Assembly: GCA_026169195.1 (NCBI GenBank) | Contig: JAPFEH010000088.1 | Coordinates: forward strand, 1 to 44,753 | DNA length: 44,753 nt | DNA from: Dysosmobacter sp. | Lineage (GTDB): Bacteria; Bacillota; Clostridia; Oscillospirales; Oscillospiraceae | Direction: 5' to 3' | Shown here: one piece after another, positions 1 to 35,806 of the stretch | How positions within the stretch are numbered: the first letter of the stretch is position 1 | Layout: each line of letters begins with the position of its first letter | Translations under genes and position numbers: made by a program | The notes under the pieces: model-generated | What the model saw: the letters and a program-made list of their open reading frames with translations, nothing else | Databases searched by the model: none | Told to the model about the DNA's origin: nothing

Positions 1-75
1 ATCTTTCACCACAGCCTCTACGACCTTTTGCTTAAACTCTGCTGTGTACCGTTTGTTTGGTATCCCTTTTGGCAT
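1..75 (-). CDS. IS3-family transposase OrfA, N-terminal fragment (runs off window)
   Basis: Reverse-strand ATG at 75 begins MPKGIPNKRYTAEFKQK, the typical opening of IS3/IS150-group OrfA helix-turn-helix proteins, which bind the IS ends and supply the upstream half of the frameshifted OrfAB transposase. Only 25 codons are present; the rest lies beyond base 1. The ribosome-binding site (GGGGTG at 84-89 read in reverse, 8 bases from the ATG) sits inside a long inverted repeat at 83-131. Family assignment rests on this short N-terminus and the adjacent terminal repeat. Confidence 0.7.
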   Translation of the reverse strand, partial: MPKGIPNKRYTAEFKQKVVEAVVKD

Positions 76-174: not shown

Positions 175-3126
175 TTATCCAAGCAGATAACGGTATTTGT
201 TCAAAACGGTCAGAATCAGGATTTCCACATCGGCGGGCAAATCGTTTTGCATGTCCAGATCTGCCTCAAAAACCCGATCGTTGAGCCGGACCAGAACCTT
301 ACTGCCGCCAAGGGGCAGGAAGCCGGCGTTCTTCACACTTTCATCAAAGCCTTCACGGGAGTGGAACAGGGTGAATTTATCCCGGTAGGGGGCGGAATCA
401 TACGGGCAGAAGACCGCGCAGTTTCCGCACTCATTGCACATCCGGTCCACATGGAGGATCTGATGACGGCCATCCGGCAGTTCGATGACCACATTGGCGC
501 GGTTGGGACAGACGTCCGCGCAAACCTGACAAACCACGTTGCAGGTCAGGCAGCGGTCGCCTTCACACTTTGCGGATTCGCACAGAATTCCCTTTTTGGC
601 AATAGCTTCGGCACGGGTGGCCTTGGCGCTTTCCGGCATCCGGAAGGTGTGAACCTGACCGATCACGGCATTGGCAAAGCCCTGTGCGTCTGCAATGCCC
701 TCCACCACAGTGGCAGGCCCGCGCATGGCGTCGCCGCCTGCGTAAACGCCTTCAAGGTTGGTTTTGAAGTCCGGAGTTCCCTTTTCATCCACGTTGATGC
801 CATTGGCGGTAAAGAGTTCGGATTCCACATGCTCGCCCACAGCAGAGATCACGGTGTCGCAGGGGATCTCCACGAATTCTCCGGTTGGGACGGGCTTGCG
901 GCGGCCCTTGCTGTCCGGCTCGCCCAGTTTCATTTTTTCGCATTTCAGGATACCGCCGGCCTGTTCCACAGGTGCGGCCAGTTCCATAAACTGTACGCCG
1001 TCGGCAATGGCCAGCTCCAGCTCCTCAGCGTCGGCGGGCATATACTTCTTCGTGCGGCGGTAGACCAGCGTGGCGGATGCGGCGCCGGCCCGCAGAGCGG
1101 CACGGGCAGCGTCCATAGCGGTGTTGCCGCCGCCCACCACGGCCACATGACCCAGCGAGACCGTTTTGCCGGCCTTCAGATCCTTCAGCCAGCCGATGAC
1201 AGGCACTACATTGCCGGGAATATCCAGCTTTCCGGCCTTCCACGCGCCAACGGCGAAGAAAATATGGGTGTAGCCCATGGATTTCAATTCGGCGACAGAA
1301 GGAGCGGGGGTGTTCAGCTTGACTTCCACCCCCATTTTGAACATCAGCGCCACATCTTTGTCGATGGTATCGTCACTGATGCGGAAGGCGGGGATCACCT
1401 GCCGGACTACACCGCCCAGAACATCGGACTTTTCAAAGATGGTAACAGGGATTCCGGCACGGCCGATGAAATACGCGGCAGACATTCCGGTGGGGCCGCC
1501 GCCTACCACCGCTACACGGATCTTGGTGTCGGCGGGGGCGGGTTTTGTAAGCTTGTTCATATACTGGTCAAAGCCCTTTTCCGCTGCCACCAGCTTGGTA
1601 GCGCGAATCTGCACGGACTGGTCATAGTAATTCCGGGTGCATTTGGTCTGGCAGCGATGGGTGCAGATGGTACCGGTAATGAAGGGCAGGGCATTTTTCT
1701 CCGTGATGACCCGGAGAGCAGAGGCGTAGCGGCCCTTGCGGCACAGCTCGATATATTCGGGAATGTCCTGCTGGATGGGACAGCCGCCTTTACAGGGAGC
1801 GGTAAAGCAGTCTATCAGCGGAACCTTTTCATAGAGCTTGCGGCGGGGGAGCGGCTTGATATCCTTGAGATGATATTTGTCAGAGCGGGCAGCCAGCGCC
1901 AATGCCTCGATCCCCTCTACATCGACACCGGTGAAGGGCTTGAAATCCAAGGCATCCAGTTTGTCTCCGATCTGGACAAAGCGCTGGTAGCCGCCGGGCT
2001 TCAATTCCGTAGTTGCCATGGTAACGGGCCAGATCCCCAAAGAGAAGAGCTTGCCGATATTGAACGCATCTGCGCCGCCGGCGTAGGAGATCCGCAGCTT
2101 TCCGTCGAATTCCCGGGAGATCCGGGCAGCCATGGCGGTAGTCAGCGGGAACAGGCTCTTGCCGGCCATATACATCTCTTCGCTGGGAAGCTCCCCCTGC
2201 GTTACATCCACGGGAAAGGTGTTGGAAAGCTTCAGCCCGAACTCCAGACCATTGGCGGCAGCCAGATCCTGCAGGCGGCGGAACATCGGCACAGCATCCT
2301 CATACTGGAGGTCTTCCTTGAAGTGGTGGTCATCAAAAGCAATATAGTCATAGCCCATGCTGTCCAGAATGGAGCGGGCTGTCTCGTAGCCCAGAATCGT
2401 GGGATTGCACTTGACAAAGGTGTGCAGGTGCTTTTTTTCGATCAGGTAACCGGCAATACGCTCGATCTCGTCCGGAGGACAGCCGTGCAGGGTGGAAACC
2501 GTGACGCTGCCGGAGACGTGCGGGGAGATGGTTTCAATATAAGCGCTCTCGCCGGGGAAGAATTCCTTCAAGACGCGAATGCACTCTTGGAAAATGGGAG
2601 TGGAACCGGCGTCGATCATGCCATTTAAGAACGTGTCGATCTTCTCGCTCTGGATACCCGCCAAGTCGTATCCAACGGACATATTGAATATGAATCCGTT
2701 TGGATCGCCCAGACCGTAGACCTTGGCCATGATCTTGAGAGCGCACCAAGCCTTTACATATTCCTCAAAGGCCTGCTGGACATACAGCTCCGTGGACCAC
2801 TCGCAGTTATAGCATTCATCCTCGGCCAGAATGCAGGGACGGTTGATGCAGGCAGCCAGATCTGCGCCGTCCATTTTCTGAACGGTTTTCAGCTCAAAAA
2901 AACGGGCGCCGCCAAAATAGCCGGCAATGATATTCTGCGCCAATTGGGTATTGGGGCCTGCGGCGGGACCAAAGGGCGTTTCGATGGTCTCACCGAAGAT
3001 GGGCAGCTTTTTGGTGCCGGCCTTATAAGGCTTATGGACGCCAAATACCGAGCCCTCCCGCTGATATTCAGTCGTGACCCAGATCATCAATTCCCGGAAG
3101 GGAATGGGGATCATACATTCAGACAT
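175..3126 (-). CDS. ygfK: YgfK-type FAD/Fe-S oxidoreductase (putative selenate reductase family)
   Basis: About 983 residues from the ATG at 3126, preceded by AGGAGG 8 bases away (a GTG just upstream is less well placed). The N-terminal ~430 residues are dihydroorotate-dehydrogenase-like. A glutamate-synthase-small-subunit-like part follows, with a cysteine cluster starting APCKGGCP near residue 443 and continuing through CTHRCQTKC. Then come an FAD site (VAVVGGGPTGMSAA, ~540) and an NADPH site (VAVVGGGNTAMDAAR, ~660). The C-terminus is ferredoxin-like, with CLTCNVVCQVCADVCP and CNECGNCAVFCP for [4Fe-4S] clusters. YgfK was once called a selenate reductase subunit; homologues belong to the anaerobic purine/urate degradation gene set of gut bacteria. 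It is co-directional with ssnA 79 bases upstream, which supports the same role. The actual substrate is inferred, not shown. Confidence 0.9.
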   Translation of the reverse strand: MSECMIPIPFRELMIWVTTEYQREGSVFGVHKPYKAGTKKLPIFGETIETPFGPAAGPNTQLAQNIIAGYFGGARFFELKTVQKMDGADLAACINRPCILAEDECYNCEWSTELYVQQAFEEYVKAWCALKIMAKVYGLGDPNGFIFNMSVGYDLAGIQSEKIDTFLNGMIDAGSTPIFQECIRVLKEFFPGESAYIETISPHVSGSVTVSTLHGCPPDEIERIAGYLIEKKHLHTFVKCNPTILGYETARSILDSMGYDYIAFDDHHFKEDLQYEDAVPMFRRLQDLAAANGLEFGLKLSNTFPVDVTQGELPSEEMYMAGKSLFPLTTAMAARISREFDGKLRISYAGGADAFNIGKLFSLGIWPVTMATTELKPGGYQRFVQIGDKLDALDFKPFTGVDVEGIEALALAARSDKYHLKDIKPLPRRKLYEKVPLIDCFTAPCKGGCPIQQDIPEYIELCRKGRYASALRVITEKNALPFITGTICTHRCQTKCTRNYYDQSVQIRATKLVAAEKGFDQYMNKLTKPAPADTKIRVAVVGGGPTGMSAAYFIGRAGIPVTIFEKSDVLGGVVRQVIPAFRISDDTIDKDVALMFKMGVEVKLNTPAPSVAELKSMGYTHIFFAVGAWKAGKLDIPGNVVPVIGWLKDLKAGKTVSLGHVAVVGGGNTAMDAARAALRAGAASATLVYRRTKKYMPADAEELELAIADGVQFMELAAPVEQAGGILKCEKMKLGEPDSKGRRKPVPTGEFVEIPCDTVISAVGEHVESELFTANGINVDEKGTPDFKTNLEGVYAGGDAMRGPATVVEGIADAQGFANAVIGQVHTFRMPESAKATRAEAIAKKGILCESAKCEGDRCLTCNVVCQVCADVCPNRANVVIELPDGRHQILHVDRMCNECGNCAVFCPYDSAPYRDKFTLFHSREGFDESVKNAGFLPLGGSKVLVRLNDRVFEADLDMQNDLPADVEILILTVLNKYRYLLG

Positions 3127-3205
3127 CACAAATTCCTCCTTAAAATCGGGTTTGCAGCTTCTCCGGATCGGAGAAGAACGTACGGACAGCTGTACTGCGA
3201 GCCGG

Positions 3206-4549
3206 TTAATATTCGCAATGGTTCAGCCTGCCCCACAGTTTTTTGGAGACTTCCAGAATTCTGGCGTTGACGGCTTCCTCGTCGATTTCCGTCAGCACCC
3301 GGTCTTTCATCAAAATCCTCCCGTTGATCATGGTGGTTTGACACTGCCGGCCGGTCATGCCGAAGAGCATGTGACCGTCGATATTGGCATCGGAGAAGGG
3401 GGTGAAGGGCTTGTAGTCCATGACGATCACGTCGGCTGCCGCGCCGGGTTTCAAAACGCCCAGCGTGGGGAAGCCGGCCCGTTCCGCCATTTTGGCATTG
3501 TTTTTGAACAGCATGTCGGTCACCTCACACCAGCCCACACCGGGCAGGCAGGCGTTATGCCGCTGAGAGCACAGGGCGACCTTGATGGATTCCAGCATAT
3601 CATTGGTATAAGCGTCGGTGCCCATCCCGATGAGGATTCCCTTTTTGTAAAGCTGCAAAACAGGAGAGATGCCCACGGCGTTGCCCATGTTGGATTCCGG
3701 ATTATTGACGCACATGGTATCGGTGGCTTTGATGATGTCCATTTCCGCGGTATTGACATGGATGCAATGACCCAGTATGGTTTTTGGTCCCAGAATCCCG
3801 TGATCCTGCAGCCGCTGAACGGGGCGGCGGCCGTAGTTCTGGAGAGAGTCATACACATCGTTCATGCCCTCGGATACATGAATGTGATAACCGACGCGGC
3901 CGTTGTTGGCCTCGTTCATGCGGTCAAAGGTCTTATCGGAAATGGTGAACAGGGCATGACCGCCGAACATGGGCTTGAGCATGTCGCTGGGATTTTTTTC
4001 GCACCAGTCGATAAAGTCCTTGTTTTCCTGCACAGACTGCATGGACTTTTCCTCGCCGTCCCGATCACTGACCTCATAACAGAGACTGGCTCTCATACCG
4101 AATTCCTTGGTGACCTCAGCAATTTCCATCAGGGAACCGGGGATTTCACAGAAGGAGGCGTGGTGGTCAAAAATCGTGGTGACGCCCTGCTTGATCGAGT
4201 CGATTACCAAGGCCTGCGCAGAAGCCCGGGTAGCTGCCAGATCCAGATTCCGGTCGATATACCACCATTGGCCGTCTAGCACCTCATAAAAATTGGCAGG
4301 AGCGTAACCGTCAATGGAAAGCCCGCGGGCCAAGGCAGAATAAATGTGTGTATGGGCGTTGATCAACCCCGGCATGATGACGCCGCCTCTGGCGTCTACA
4401 AATTCCGCCTGTGGATATCTGGCTTTTAATTCTGTGGTGGTGCCGACTGCCACGATCGTTCCGCCATCCGTGACCACGCCGCCATCACACAGATAGCCGA
4501 TGCTATCGGGATCCCGGGTGATGACGTTTCCGTTTGCCAGTAAGATCAT
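3206..4549 (-). CDS. ssnA: SsnA-type amidohydrolase
   Basis: 447 residues, ATG at 4549 with GGAGG at 4557-4561. It is a metal-dependent hydrolase of the amidohydrolase superfamily (guanine deaminase/TrzN relatives). Visible metal ligands are NAHTHIYS (~65), the HIHVSEG segment (~225), the LGHCIHV region (~260) and GTDAYTNDM (~320). The C-terminal strand ends PGAAADVIVMDY, as in cytosine/guanine deaminases. In Enterobacteria and many gut Firmicutes ssnA sits beside ygfK in the purine degradation cluster, as here. The pair probably forms one transcript starting near 4695 that runs through a regulated leader at 4581-4695. The precise reaction of SsnA is not fixed by sequence. Confidence 0.9.
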   Translation of the reverse strand: MILLANGNVITRDPDSIGYLCDGGVVTDGGTIVAVGTTTELKARYPQAEFVDARGGVIMPGLINAHTHIYSALARGLSIDGYAPANFYEVLDGQWWYIDRNLDLAATRASAQALVIDSIKQGVTTIFDHHASFCEIPGSLMEIAEVTKEFGMRASLCYEVSDRDGEEKSMQSVQENKDFIDWCEKNPSDMLKPMFGGHALFTISDKTFDRMNEANNGRVGYHIHVSEGMNDVYDSLQNYGRRPVQRLQDHGILGPKTILGHCIHVNTAEMDIIKATDTMCVNNPESNMGNAVGISPVLQLYKKGILIGMGTDAYTNDMLESIKVALCSQRHNACLPGVGWCEVTDMLFKNNAKMAERAGFPTLGVLKPGAAADVIVMDYKPFTPFSDANIDGHMLFGMTGRQCQTTMINGRILMKDRVLTEIDEEAVNARILEVSKKLWGRLNHCEY

Positions 4550-4580
4550 AAGAAAACCTCCTTGCGTGTCTGGTTGTCAG

Positions 4581-4695
4581 AAAATAAAAAAGGCGCTTCA
4601 AACCTTCTGCTGGTTTGAAACACCTATCAAAGAAGGAATGATAGGTGTCAGCCCGTGCGCGCGGCACTCCGTTGCAGCTATCATTCTTTGCTTGT
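4581..4695 (-). promoter_or_regulatory. Attenuator / candidate riboswitch leader of ssnA-ygfK
   Basis: Read on the reverse strand there is a 9-bp stem (4678-4686 with 4636-4644) closing a compact domain with an inner GTGC/GCAC hairpin. The descending arm of that stem overlaps 4639-4648, which is fully complementary to 4620-4629 (10 bp). That second stem in turn overlaps the 5' arm of a terminator (4612-4624 pairing with 4592-4604, then a U-tract from 4591 to 4581). So the aptamer stem plus terminator and the antiterminator are mutually exclusive. This is the layout of a transcriptional OFF switch, stabilised when the first stem is held closed. I do not match it to a major riboswitch class with certainty. 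I recall a bioinformatically described ssnA RNA motif, and this may be a member. Confidence 0.7.
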
Positions 4696-4701
4696 ACTTG
4701 T

Positions 4702-4730
4702 ATTGTAACGAAGAAAAGGCTGAAATGCAA
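4702..4730 (-). promoter_or_regulatory. Promoter of the ssnA-ygfK unit
   Basis: Reverse strand TTGCAT (4725-4730), a 17-base spacer, then TACAAT (4702-4707). This puts the RNA start near 4695, just ahead of the aptamer-like domain. Confidence 0.6.
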
Positions 4731-13768: not shown

Positions 13769-13789
13769 GGCTTTGCCGTACCCATCTTC

Positions 13790-13900
13790 TTCCATCCAGA
13801 CTGTAACTGTTGGTCCCGGAGTTTCACCGGGTCAGCGGATATCGAGGATATCCGGTCGCGGACTTTACCGCCAGTGGGGAATTACGCCCCGCCCTGAAGA
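13790..13900 (-). promoter_or_regulatory. FMN riboswitch (RFN element)
   Basis: The reverse strand carries the conserved RFN blocks in order: TTCAGGGCGGGGCG, GGCGGTAAAGTCCGCGACC, CGGTGAAACTCCGGGACC, and ACAGTTACAGTCTGGATGG followed by GAAGA. It binds FMN and represses the riboflavin importer downstream. All the conserved junction sequences are intact. Confidence 0.97.
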
Positions 13901-13977
13901 CAAAGTATTCAGTTGCTTTCTGTGCGTTATTATACAACCGCTGAATGAAAAATGCAACCCTTTTTTCAGGGACGGAC

Positions 13978-29936: not shown

Positions 29937-31319
29937 TCAAAGGGTGCATTTGCCGCGGGCTATATATCTGCCCTGCGGTTCCCGATCCAGAACGCTGCCG
30001 TTTTCTACACAGAGATGTCCGCGCAGCCATACCTGCCGGATGCCGCCTGCGGTCACAAATCCCTCATATGGATTGTAATCCACATTGGCGATGCAATCCT
30101 CTGACCGGATCACATGGCTGCTGCCGGGATCGTAAACCACGATGTCTGCGTCGCTGCCGGCGGCCAGACGGCCCTTGCGGGGGAAGAGGCCATACATCCG
30201 GGCCGGATCTTCGCTTAAAAGCCGGCACATCCGCTGGAGGGTAATGCGCTTTTTGGCTACACCATAGGAATAGATCAGTTCGCCGCGGGTCTCCACTCCG
30301 GGCAGGCCGCCGGGAATCTTGGTGAAATCATCACGTCCGGCGTCCTTCTGCGCCAGAGTGAAGGAACAGTGATCGGTGGAAATGGTCTGGATCTCACCGC
30401 GGCGCAGGGCCTTCCACAAAAGCTCCTGCTGACCCTTTTCCCGTAGAGGGGGCGCACAGACATAGCGTGCGGCCTGAGAATAATCTTCGTTGAAGTACAG
30501 GCTGTCATCCAGCAGCAGATATTGGGGGCAGGTTTCCACATAGACCGTCTGTCCCCGCTCCCGCGCGTGCTGCACTTCCTTCAAGGCCTCCTGATTGGTG
30601 AGGTGGACGATCACCACGGGGGCATCGGCAGCCTGAGCGATGCGCAGCAGACGGCTGACGGCCTCCGCCTCCATTGCCATGGGGCGGGTCAGAGGGTGGC
30701 TGGCAGGCGTCCGTTCACCGGCAGCCTGACGCTCGGCGATCATGCCGTCGATCACGCCGGCGTTTTCACAATGAACGCCGCACAGGCCGCCCAGACTTTT
30801 CAGCTCCTTCAAGGCCCAGTACATGTCCCGGTCGCCCACCATCATGGCAGGATAGGTCATGTACATTTTGAAGGAGGAAACGCCTTGAGCGAACATATCC
30901 TTCAGTTCTGCACGGATGGATTCATTCCAATCATCAATGGTCATATGGAAGCCGTAATCGCAGAACGTCTGTCCATCGGCCTTTTGATGCCACAGCTGTA
31001 ATCCGTGGTGCAGGCTTTCCCCCTTGTTGGGGCAGGCGAAATCAAGGATGGTCGTGGTGCCGCCCCGCAAAGCGGCCCGGCTTCCCGTATAGAAATTGTC
31101 CGCAGTTGTGGTGCCTGCTACATCCAGATCAAAATGGGTGTGAGCGTCAATAAAGCCGGGAAACAGAAGACAGCCGGTCACATCGATCACCTGCGTGTCC
31201 GCGTCTGCATCCAGCTTCCGGTCAACACGGAGGATTTTCTCGTGTTCGATCAGCAGGTCGGCGCGTCTGGCTCCGCTGCCGGAAACTACGGTACCGCCTT
31301 TGAGCAGCTTTTTCATCAT
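29937..31319 (-). CDS. hydA: Dihydropyrimidinase / hydantoinase
   Basis: 460 residues. GGAG stands 5 bases before ATG 31319 (another ATG at 31316; a GTG at 31325 overlaps the site). A binuclear-metal amidohydrolase: HxH in FIDAHTHFDLD (~56), the carbamylated lysine in SSFKMYMTY (~150), and HCEN, VHLTN and STDHCS (~180, 237, 312) as further ligands. It opens cyclic amide rings (dihydropyrimidines, hydantoins, allantoin-like compounds). HydA/HyuA-type enzymes are part of the anaerobic purine degradation set with ygfK and ssnA; here it is 25 kb from those two. Length matches the family. Confidence 0.9.
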   Translation of the reverse strand: MMKKLLKGGTVVSGSGARRADLLIEHEKILRVDRKLDADADTQVIDVTGCLLFPGFIDAHTHFDLDVAGTTTADNFYTGSRAALRGGTTTILDFACPNKGESLHHGLQLWHQKADGQTFCDYGFHMTIDDWNESIRAELKDMFAQGVSSFKMYMTYPAMMVGDRDMYWALKELKSLGGLCGVHCENAGVIDGMIAERQAAGERTPASHPLTRPMAMEAEAVSRLLRIAQAADAPVVIVHLTNQEALKEVQHARERGQTVYVETCPQYLLLDDSLYFNEDYSQAARYVCAPPLREKGQQELLWKALRRGEIQTISTDHCSFTLAQKDAGRDDFTKIPGGLPGVETRGELIYSYGVAKKRITLQRMCRLLSEDPARMYGLFPRKGRLAAGSDADIVVYDPGSSHVIRSEDCIANVDYNPYEGFVTAGGIRQVWLRGHLCVENGSVLDREPQGRYIARGKCTL

Positions 31320-31579
31320 CAACACTCCATTTCTGCGGCCGGAGGCCGCCTTGCGGTATTTCTATGTGTTTATTTTTATAGTATATCATGCCAAAGAGGG
31401 AATTTCCAGAGAAGGCAGAGAAAATCCGTTAGGGGACCGTTCATGGCCGGAAGAAATTTTGGAGAATCCGGAAAAATCCGTAAAAATCCGTAAAATTAGG
31501 GTACCCATTTGGGAGAGATATGGTATAATACAGCCAACAGGCGGATGCTGAATGCCTGAATTTTGAAGGGGGTAAAAGA
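31320..31579 (+). promoter_or_regulatory. Divergent control region, phased A-tracts and promoter of the nucleotidase gene
   Basis: Contains an extended -10 TGGTATAAT (TATAAT at 31524-31529) with a poor -35. A run of three A-tracts spaced exactly 10 bases apart (31472-31476, 31482-31486, 31492-31495) lies upstream, each followed by TCCG or TTAGG. Such phased A-tracts bend DNA and can act as an UP element. No protein gene is seen here. Confidence 0.6.
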
Positions 31580-35554: not shown

Positions 35555-35806
35555 ATGGAAAACTGCGAAGATGGGGAGCAGTATCCGGTGCGTGAAAGCA
35601 AAGAGAGGGAGCGGATGGTGAAAGCTCCCGTGCAGCGGCCGGTGAAGTCGTCCCGGAGCATCGGGCTGAACAAGCAGTAAGCCGCGACGGAATCCCTCCG
35701 TTATCCGGGAAGAACGCTTTGCGTTGTTGAGTGCGGGTTTTCCCGAATTCAGGTGGTACCACGGATCATTGTTCGCCCTGAGCCTTTTGGCTCAGGGCGT
35801 TTTTTT
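35555..35806 (+). promoter_or_regulatory. T-box leader of valS
   Basis: The T-box sequence AGGTGGTACCACGG is at 35751-35764, and the Stem I region covers about 35555-35690. Antiterminator pairing competes with the terminator at 35774-35806. A GTC triplet at 35647-35649 in GGTGAAGTC could be the valine specifier, but I could not fold Stem I fully. It senses uncharged tRNA(Val) and allows valS transcription. Confidence 0.92.
35774..35806 (+). terminator. T-box terminator
   Basis: CGCCCTGAGCC, TTTT loop, GGCTCAGGGCG, then TTTTTTT. It is disrupted by the antiterminator when uncharged tRNA is bound. Confidence 0.92.

Follow-up and report, generated by a model that had tools for sequence, protein, structure and literature searches.

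Ligand-ON purine riboswitches that act by antitermination are known, for example the adenine class. The ssnA RNA (Rfam RF03031), a cis-regulatory family, is reportedly taken from a 2017 list of 224 candidate RNAs. A literature search, with most subscription papers outside its reach, found no published ligand for this RNA, and "ssnA" does not occur in the main text of three papers on riboswitches (PMC7373994, PMC7266159, and PMC10043782). The xanthine-I (NMT1) riboswitch is described as binding both xanthine and uric acid (PMC7373994, PMC8266621) and as being confined to Proteobacteria, where it acts mostly by sequestration of the ribosome site (PMC7373994).

In the reductive breakdown of uric acid, XdhD is described as converting uric acid to yanthine, YgfK together with SsnA as converting yanthine to ureidomethyl-hydantoin, and HyuA as opening the latter (PMC12507026). 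The place of yanthine in the pathway was reported in 2025, in a paper whose main text does not contain the word "riboswitch" (PMC12507026). According to a commentary, uric acid induces ygfK, ssnA, and other pathway genes in gut bacteria that are distant from those studied here (PMC12990295). In other Clostridia, the reconstructed regulon of the Sigma-54 activator DioR is described as including ygeW-ygfK-ssnA-ygeY (PMC6615313). Control by DioR is based on protein and DNA; in the family studied here, an RNA leader may do that job.

We analyzed such a leader in Dysosmobacter sp. (assembly GCA_026169195.1, contig JAPFEH010000088.1). Positions refer to the window, i.e., the whole stretch of 44,753 nt that was analyzed (positions 1 to 44,753). 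The element itself is already known; the switch reading, the link to the pathway, and the wider gene set are new here.

RESULTS

The leader of ssnA-ygfK is an ssnA RNA

An Rfam scan of the window gave a single match to the ssnA RNA, in the leader of ssnA (Table 1). The score of 61.1 bits compares with a gathering cutoff of 37.3, all 48 model positions are covered, and no other Rfam family matched the leader at an E value of ≤1. We conclude that the element belongs to an already catalogued kind of RNA. A first-pass annotation of this DNA had proposed an Rfam comparison that included the ssnA motif but had held that the aptamer-like domain fits no major known class; the comparison identified RF03031 and does not support the latter statement. 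Every feature of the family that was checked is present in the window, namely, P1 at model positions 8 to 12 and 35 to 39, the P2 hairpin, the conserved internal loop (all nine P1 and P2 pairs are standard), and the gene context, with the RNA ending 90 bases before the ssnA start codon. The core does not differ from that of RF03031. The Rfam model pairs P1 and P2 only; the competing stem, the antiterminator, the terminator, and the polarity are added here.

The leader resembles the xanthine-I riboswitch in being a small RNA with conserved junctions and a link to purine breakdown, but RF03031 was its only match at an E value of ≤1, and the NMT1 model was presumably among the 4227 Rfam models. 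It is like the adenine-class ON riboswitches in principle, in that a ligand-stabilized aptamer stem would displace a competing stem; sequence and structure differ, and there was no second Rfam match.

Both genes behind the leader were identified with protein profiles. SsnA scored 608.3 bits with NF005540 (cutoff, 444) and 536.6 bits with TIGR03314 (cutoff, 455.5), and YgfK scored 1307.4 bits with TIGR03315 (cutoff, 835.3); the contig starts at window position 1. SsnA and YgfK belong to the reductive uric-acid pathway, which supports the connection to purine or urate breakdown that had been suggested from the DNA. Elsewhere in the window there are a dihydropyrimidinase/HyuA-like gene (29937-31325, minus strand; TIGR02033, 564.8 bits) and two further RNA elements above their cutoffs, an FMN riboswitch (13780-13905, minus strand; 113.8 bits) and a T-box leader (35559-35783, plus strand; 109.3 bits).

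Table 1. Features of the ssnA-ygfK locus, in window coordinates
Feature	Position	Strand	Basis
-35 hexamer TTGCAT	4725..4730	-	read from sequence
-10 hexamer TACAAT, 17-nt spacer	4702..4707	-	read from sequence
ssnA RNA (Rfam RF03031), aptamer-like domain	4640..4687	-	61.1 bits, model positions 1-48 of 48
P1, 5′ arm UAGCU, Rfam positions 8-12	4676..4680	-	Rfam model, pair changes
P1, 3′ arm GGCUG, Rfam positions 35-39	4649..4653	-	Rfam model, pair changes
Conserved internal loop G-N-A-A-C/G-G-N-A, positions 13-20	4668..4675	-	invariant positions
P2, 5′ arm GUGC	4664..4667	-	pair changes in relatives
P2, 3′ arm GCAC	4655..4658	-	pair changes in relatives
Competing (first) stem, 5′ arm; 4678-4680 common to P1	4678..4686	-	leader fold, alignment
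Competing (first) stem, 3′ arm, common to antiterminator	4636..4644	-	leader fold, alignment
Antiterminator, 5′ arm; starts at first base after P1	4639..4648	-	pair check, alignment
Antiterminator, 3′ arm; overlaps terminator 5′ arm	4620..4629	-	pair check, alignment
Intrinsic terminator hairpin, 14 pairs	4591..4625	-	pattern scan, pair check, alignment
U-tract of terminator, from 4590 down	4585..4590	-	read from sequence
Shine-Dalgarno AAGGAGG	4557..4563	-	read from sequence
ssnA, aminohydrolase of reductive urate breakdown	3206..4549	-	NF005540, TIGR03314
ygfK, flavin/Fe-S reductase of reductive urate breakdown	175..3129	-	TIGR03315

Distribution of the RNA and collection of related leaders

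The ssnA RNA occurs in 53 of 119 genomes of relatives, and SsnA scored above the cutoff in 51; 50 genomes have both, adjacent to each other. The gene adjoins the RNA in 52 of the 53 genomes, in two of which (G004 and G052) the contig breaks off within ssnA. For G039 it is the RNA that sits at a contig end, and G106, from another family, has ssnA without the RNA. Larger samples, which overlap and were searched with strict filters that lose weak matches, gave a match in 110 of 400 genomes of the family (103 above the cutoff), 9 of 295 of the order, and 4 of 398 of the phylum (the window's own genome included; 2 above the cutoff). A pattern scan of genome contigs yielded at least 118 stretches. 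The 80 of these that carry a listed title come mostly from uncultured Oscillospiraceae and other Clostridia and include Oscillibacter, Flavonifractor, Intestinimonas, Dysosmobacter, and Gemmiger. Flavonifractor plautii ATCC 29863 has the RNA at locus L113.

For comparative analysis we used 170 leaders. They come from 210 sites, each with no more than three mismatches to the motif (a filter that favors the conserved letters), which correspond to 172 distinct leaders; L071 and L154, in which the match lies inside other coding DNA, were removed. No site was obtained for L007 (RNA at the contig end), L040, or L041, and some loci found later are outside the 170. The weak matches L040/L230 and L041/L231 from outside the family, as well as L227 and L229, were rejected as false, there being no ssnA homologue in the fetched stretch. 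In L039/L232 (genome G730, which belongs to a different family), the 5′ half of the aptamer is repeated imperfectly 44 bases upstream of the complete aptamer.

P1 and the competing stem share bases and exclude each other

The 111-nt leader folds with an energy of -40.2 kcal/mol, compared to a mean of -26.26 kcal/mol for shuffled sequences (z, -4.54; 0 of 200 shuffles were as good). Its minimum-energy fold contains the stem that the first-pass annotation had placed first, in which AAUGAUAG pairs with CUAUCAUU (4678-4685/4637-4644) and one G-C pair (G4686-C4636) is added, for nine standard pairs. The annotation's other structural proposals also held up: the arms of this stem are 33 nt apart, the inner GTGC/GCAC hairpin is P2, and the antiterminator has 10 of 10 standard pairs. 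The terminator, proposed as 4612-4624/4592-4604 with a U-tract, is one pair longer (4612-4625/4591-4604; 14 standard pairs), and a pattern scan recovered the same hairpin. The promoter, from which the RNA start is expected near 4695, had been called good. It fell below the threshold of our promoter scan, but the pattern TTGnnn-15..19-TAnnnT is found at the same place in 126 of 170 related leaders, compared to a mean of 12.4 in shuffled flanks.

The first stem had been thought to close the aptamer domain. The stem kept across the family is instead P1 (4676-4680/4649-4653), which the first-pass annotation did not mention and which matters most. The same UAG is used by P1 and by the first stem, such that their full forms are mutually exclusive. 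Since this UAG is common to both, the first stem looks like an alternative, ligand-free fold, and because P1 and the first stem exclude each other, formation of the aptamer would free the antiterminator.

P1 pair 9-38 is standard in all 170 leaders (157.1 would be expected if the two sides were independent) and occurs as AU in 124, GU in 30, GC in 15, and UA in 1. An AU pair replaces GC at 10-37 in 2 of the 170; in P2, UA replaces CG at 24-30 in 8 leaders, and CG replaces UA at 22-32 in 1. Pair 8-39 of P1 is weak, being standard in 129 of 170 leaders, which is not above independence. In 54 diverse leaders, four of the nine P1 and P2 pairs have changes on both sides, and the covariation score is 0.132 versus 0.100; none of 500 shuffles reached either value. 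The count of further pair types is unexceptional (reached by 80 of 500 shuffles), and versions of P1 and P2 slid from their true placement had up to 13 cells changed on both sides versus 10 for the true placement. Many core letters are fixed by the genome-contig scan pattern and the site filter; positions 8, 9, and 39 are free of both, and position 38 is free of the scan pattern.

Positions 13, 15, 16, 18, 20, and 34 are invariant in the 170 leaders, letters that the site filter and the scan pattern favor. The internal loop and G34 (4654) are together the probable ligand pocket. At core position 17, 26 of the 170 leaders have G rather than C, and 25 of these 26 have A9 and A19; the G might mark a ligand variant.

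We assessed the first stem in an alignment of window-type leaders, comprising 34 of 35 selected reference leaders (L127 was left out). Both conservation and covariation of this stem, the absence of which the first-pass annotation had named as evidence against its scheme, were present: 93.4% of cells are paired, 12 cells are changed on both sides, and the covariation score is 0.213 versus 0.128, with neither the score nor the 12 cells reached in 500 shuffles. By a stricter count, three pairs are changed on both sides, which 63 of 500 shuffles reach. In the same alignment the antiterminator is 95.9% paired, with two pairs changed on both sides, a slight excess over shuffles (54 of 500 match it), and the terminator is 99.8% paired, with four such pairs (0 of 500). 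Across the family, 117 of 161 leaders contain a competing stem that extends to positions 8 to 10 and has 5 bp or more, versus 1024 of 1717 swapped joins. This stem thus appears to be a feature of some groups and not of the family, and it is weakly supported outside the window's genus. The first stem probably does not serve as the aptamer stem; P1 is the one conserved family-wide.

Aptamer formation disfavors the terminator

In the window, the combination of competing stem, P2, and terminator has an energy of -32.6 kcal/mol, that of aptamer, antiterminator, and upper terminator -27.9 kcal/mol, and that of aptamer and full terminator -26.0 kcal/mol. From these values the antiterminator is preferred once the aptamer is formed, and binding must add about 5 kcal/mol.

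The terminators in related leaders were identified with a rule that finds none in 8 of the 170 leaders (two of these, L020 and L057, show one by eye). It replaced an earlier finder that reported terminators in 102 of 170 leaders and missed obvious ones. In L073, L104, L117, L136, and L166, no terminator was found and the ribosome site lies close behind the aptamer, an arrangement that suggests translational control.

We determined, leader by leader, the coupling energy, defined as the shift in terminator preference caused by aptamer formation; one further leader could not be scored, leaving 161. In 139 of these the terminator leaves room for the aptamer, and here the coupling was antagonistic (>0.5 kcal/mol) in 110, neutral in 24, and favorable in 5, counts that are not independent because the leaders are mutually related. 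The median was +1.93 kcal/mol, and the value for the window was +3.76 kcal/mol. For a null, the heads of leaders were joined to unrelated terminators taken from these loci (305 terminators, 400 joins, 325 scored); of the scored joins, 82 (25%) were above +0.5 and 70 (22%) below -0.5, with a median of 0. Joins of one leader to another were rejected as a null since heads and tails share sequence (185 of 317 antagonistic). Coupling was the last of the measures run in succession (equilibrium, sequestration, pairing counts, coupling); it had not been preset, and its null was run once.

The antagonism was seen in 31 of 37 window-like leaders, none of which was below -0.5, in 60 of 61 leaders of the CUAUCACUC type, and in 5 of 7 of the GATAGATG type, with one related leader neutral. 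The 33 other platforms were mixed, with 14 antagonistic and 5 favorable. In five leaders (L112, L119, L216, L125, and L181) the terminator directly adjoins P1 and no antiterminator is visible; the coupling was -0.14 in L112, 0.04 in L119, and -2.0 in L181.

In the 22 further leaders, basal terminator pairs bar the aptamer altogether; this is no excess over the null (22 of 161 leaders versus 52 of 377). Nor was there an excess of pairing with the core at a loose threshold of 0.3 (23 of 162 leaders versus 93 of 600 null joins). The last six bases of the terminator paired with aptamer bases at a mean probability of >0.8 in 16 of 162 leaders versus 15 of 600 null joins, and at >0.6 in 21 versus 41. 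The terminators of L151, L156, L036, L110, L141, L115, and L084 use different parts of the aptamer; those of L220, L222, and L215 make similar use of it, as judged by eye. An antiterminator that is compatible with the aptamer exists in 124 of the 137 leaders whose terminator is separate; 1 leader has one made only from aptamer bases, and 12 have neither kind. Of the 124, 17 also have a possible antiterminator made from aptamer bases.

Two cruder measures were set aside. With the aptamer forced in a full-length equilibrium fold, the terminator probability dropped by >0.1 in 55 of 162 leaders, rose in 7, and was about unchanged in 100, including the window; this test is too blunt, the terminators being very stable. 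Because the terminator persists at equilibrium with the aptamer forced, switching would need cotranscriptional kinetics or the energy of ligand binding. With the aptamer forced in an intermediate-length proxy for cotranscriptional folding, sequestration of a terminator arm was gained in 18 of 162 leaders, lost in 32, the window among them, and between these in 112. This measure is noisy and, if anything, contrary to an ON switch.

The coupling of aptamer and expression platform that is expected of a riboswitch is thus seen in the coupling energies and their symmetric null, with the cruder measures neutral or against. A ligand-ON polarity is suggested by the predominance of antagonistic couplings, given that the aptamer favors the terminator in so few leaders and that the null is symmetric. 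This polarity would be the opposite of that implied by the first-pass scheme, in which the ligand stabilizes the first stem and so leads to termination.

Genes behind the RNA

Going downstream from the RNA, the first gene with a homologue in the E. coli urate region is ssnA in 161 of the 170 leaders, hyuA in two, and YgfT-like in one; ygfK is the second gene in 31 of 33 loci with room downstream. In L107, which is on the same contig as L219, the gene directly behind the RNA encodes an electron-transfer subunit (NF004862), with a YgfT-like gene after it. The same arrangement occurs in L215 and L217, which belong to different genomes, and it is possible that this operon is a source of reducing power for YgfK. 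In L149 and L170 the RNA precedes a gene for a DUF6198/YczE-like membrane protein, divergent from a Xan_ur_permease gene; it was profile-scanned in L170 (2937-3569), and in L149 it was judged by sequence, with a frame that looks broken. The RNA of L097, L109, L161, and L168 lies at the end of the fetched stretch. The presence of the RNA before hyuA, the electron-transfer operon, and the DUF6198 gene suggests further members of the pathway.

DISCUSSION

The first-pass annotation's central proposal, a riboswitch-like transcription attenuator before ssnA-ygfK with overlapping antiterminator and terminator, is supported by our analysis. We consider it likely that the leader is an RF03031 ligand-ON transcription riboswitch that controls ssnA-ygfK, the operon of reductive uric-acid breakdown. 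In the ligand-free state, the competing stem (4678-4686/4636-4644) would deprive P1 of its UAG and hold the 5′ arm of the antiterminator, such that the terminator (4591-4625) would form and transcription would stop. A ligand, probably uric acid or yanthine (2,8-dioxopurine), would bind the internal loop (4668-4675) and stabilize P1. P1 would then consume the UAG, the antiterminator (4639-4648/4620-4629) would form right beside P1, the terminator's lower half would be unable to pair, and the operon would be transcribed. Family membership, the stems and their mutual exclusion, the compatible changes in both P1 and its competitor, the gene association, and the sign of the coupling underlying this scheme were computed; binding of a small molecule, the identity of that molecule, and a rise in expression are predictions.

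The same stems could be read with the opposite sign. The first stem would close the aptamer, the ligand would stabilize it, the antiterminator would be lost, and an end product would thereby shut the operon. Such a reading agrees with the presence of the first stem in the minimum-energy fold, with its compatible changes in the 34 window-type leaders, and with the lean of the sequestration proxy (32 versus 18 of 162 leaders). It would also account for L181, whose antiterminator is built solely from aptamer bases, for the possible second antiterminator of this kind in 17 of 137 leaders, and for the 5 of 139 leaders with favorable coupling. However, pair 9-38 of P1 is kept without exception, whereas a stem like the one first proposed is found in only 117 of 161 leaders; antagonistic couplings outnumber favorable ones by 110 to 5 against a symmetric null; and it would be odd for a substrate to silence its own breakdown pathway. 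We therefore regard ligand-OFF control as unlikely.

We give no better a chance to a protein target, i.e., a hairpin in which an RNA-binding antiterminator protein would stabilize P1 and likewise turn the operon on. The core, a hairpin of about 30 nt with an asymmetric internal loop, resembles the targets of BglG-type antiterminators in size. Against such a target, among the 28 largest gene clusters around 90 flanked loci from the matches listed in the pattern scan, none other than ssnA and ygfK was located downstream in the orientation of the RNA in more than two loci. Apart from these two, the most frequent neighbor (21 loci) is a gene that is mostly divergent and presumably encodes a YheO-like PAS/HTH DNA-binding regulator. 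It is more improbable still that the leader is a conserved attenuator with no ligand at all, either constitutive or dependent on temperature or Mg. Terminators do dominate the equilibrium folds, and the ligand itself is putative, but the six invariant unpaired bases (partly favored by the filter) and the pair changes on both sides in a small core that recurs in combination with widely differing terminators are what would be expected of an aptamer.

For the ligand-ON riboswitch that we favor, a short list of ligands can now be drawn up because the enzymes behind the RNA were assigned in 2025. Since ssnA and ygfK act in uric-acid breakdown and are induced by uric acid elsewhere, an inducer resembling the substrate is expected, and the likeliest ligands would be urate or yanthine. 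In our judgment urate is the leading candidate, if a tentative one. Yanthine, a purine isomer, seems a less probable choice; on that reading ssnA RNAs would be yanthine riboswitches that switch on the genes consuming it, namely, ssnA-ygfK and hyuA, together with supporting genes. What probability remains goes to another purine or to an intermediate further along the pathway. The analysis thus offers a few candidate ligands and a predicted direction of response for an RNA family for which we found no published ligand.

If the proposed mechanism is true, it would bear on microbial use of urate in gout and would supply an RNA that could serve directly as a sensor of urate or yanthine. It would also explain when many gut Oscillospiraceae break down uric acid anaerobically.
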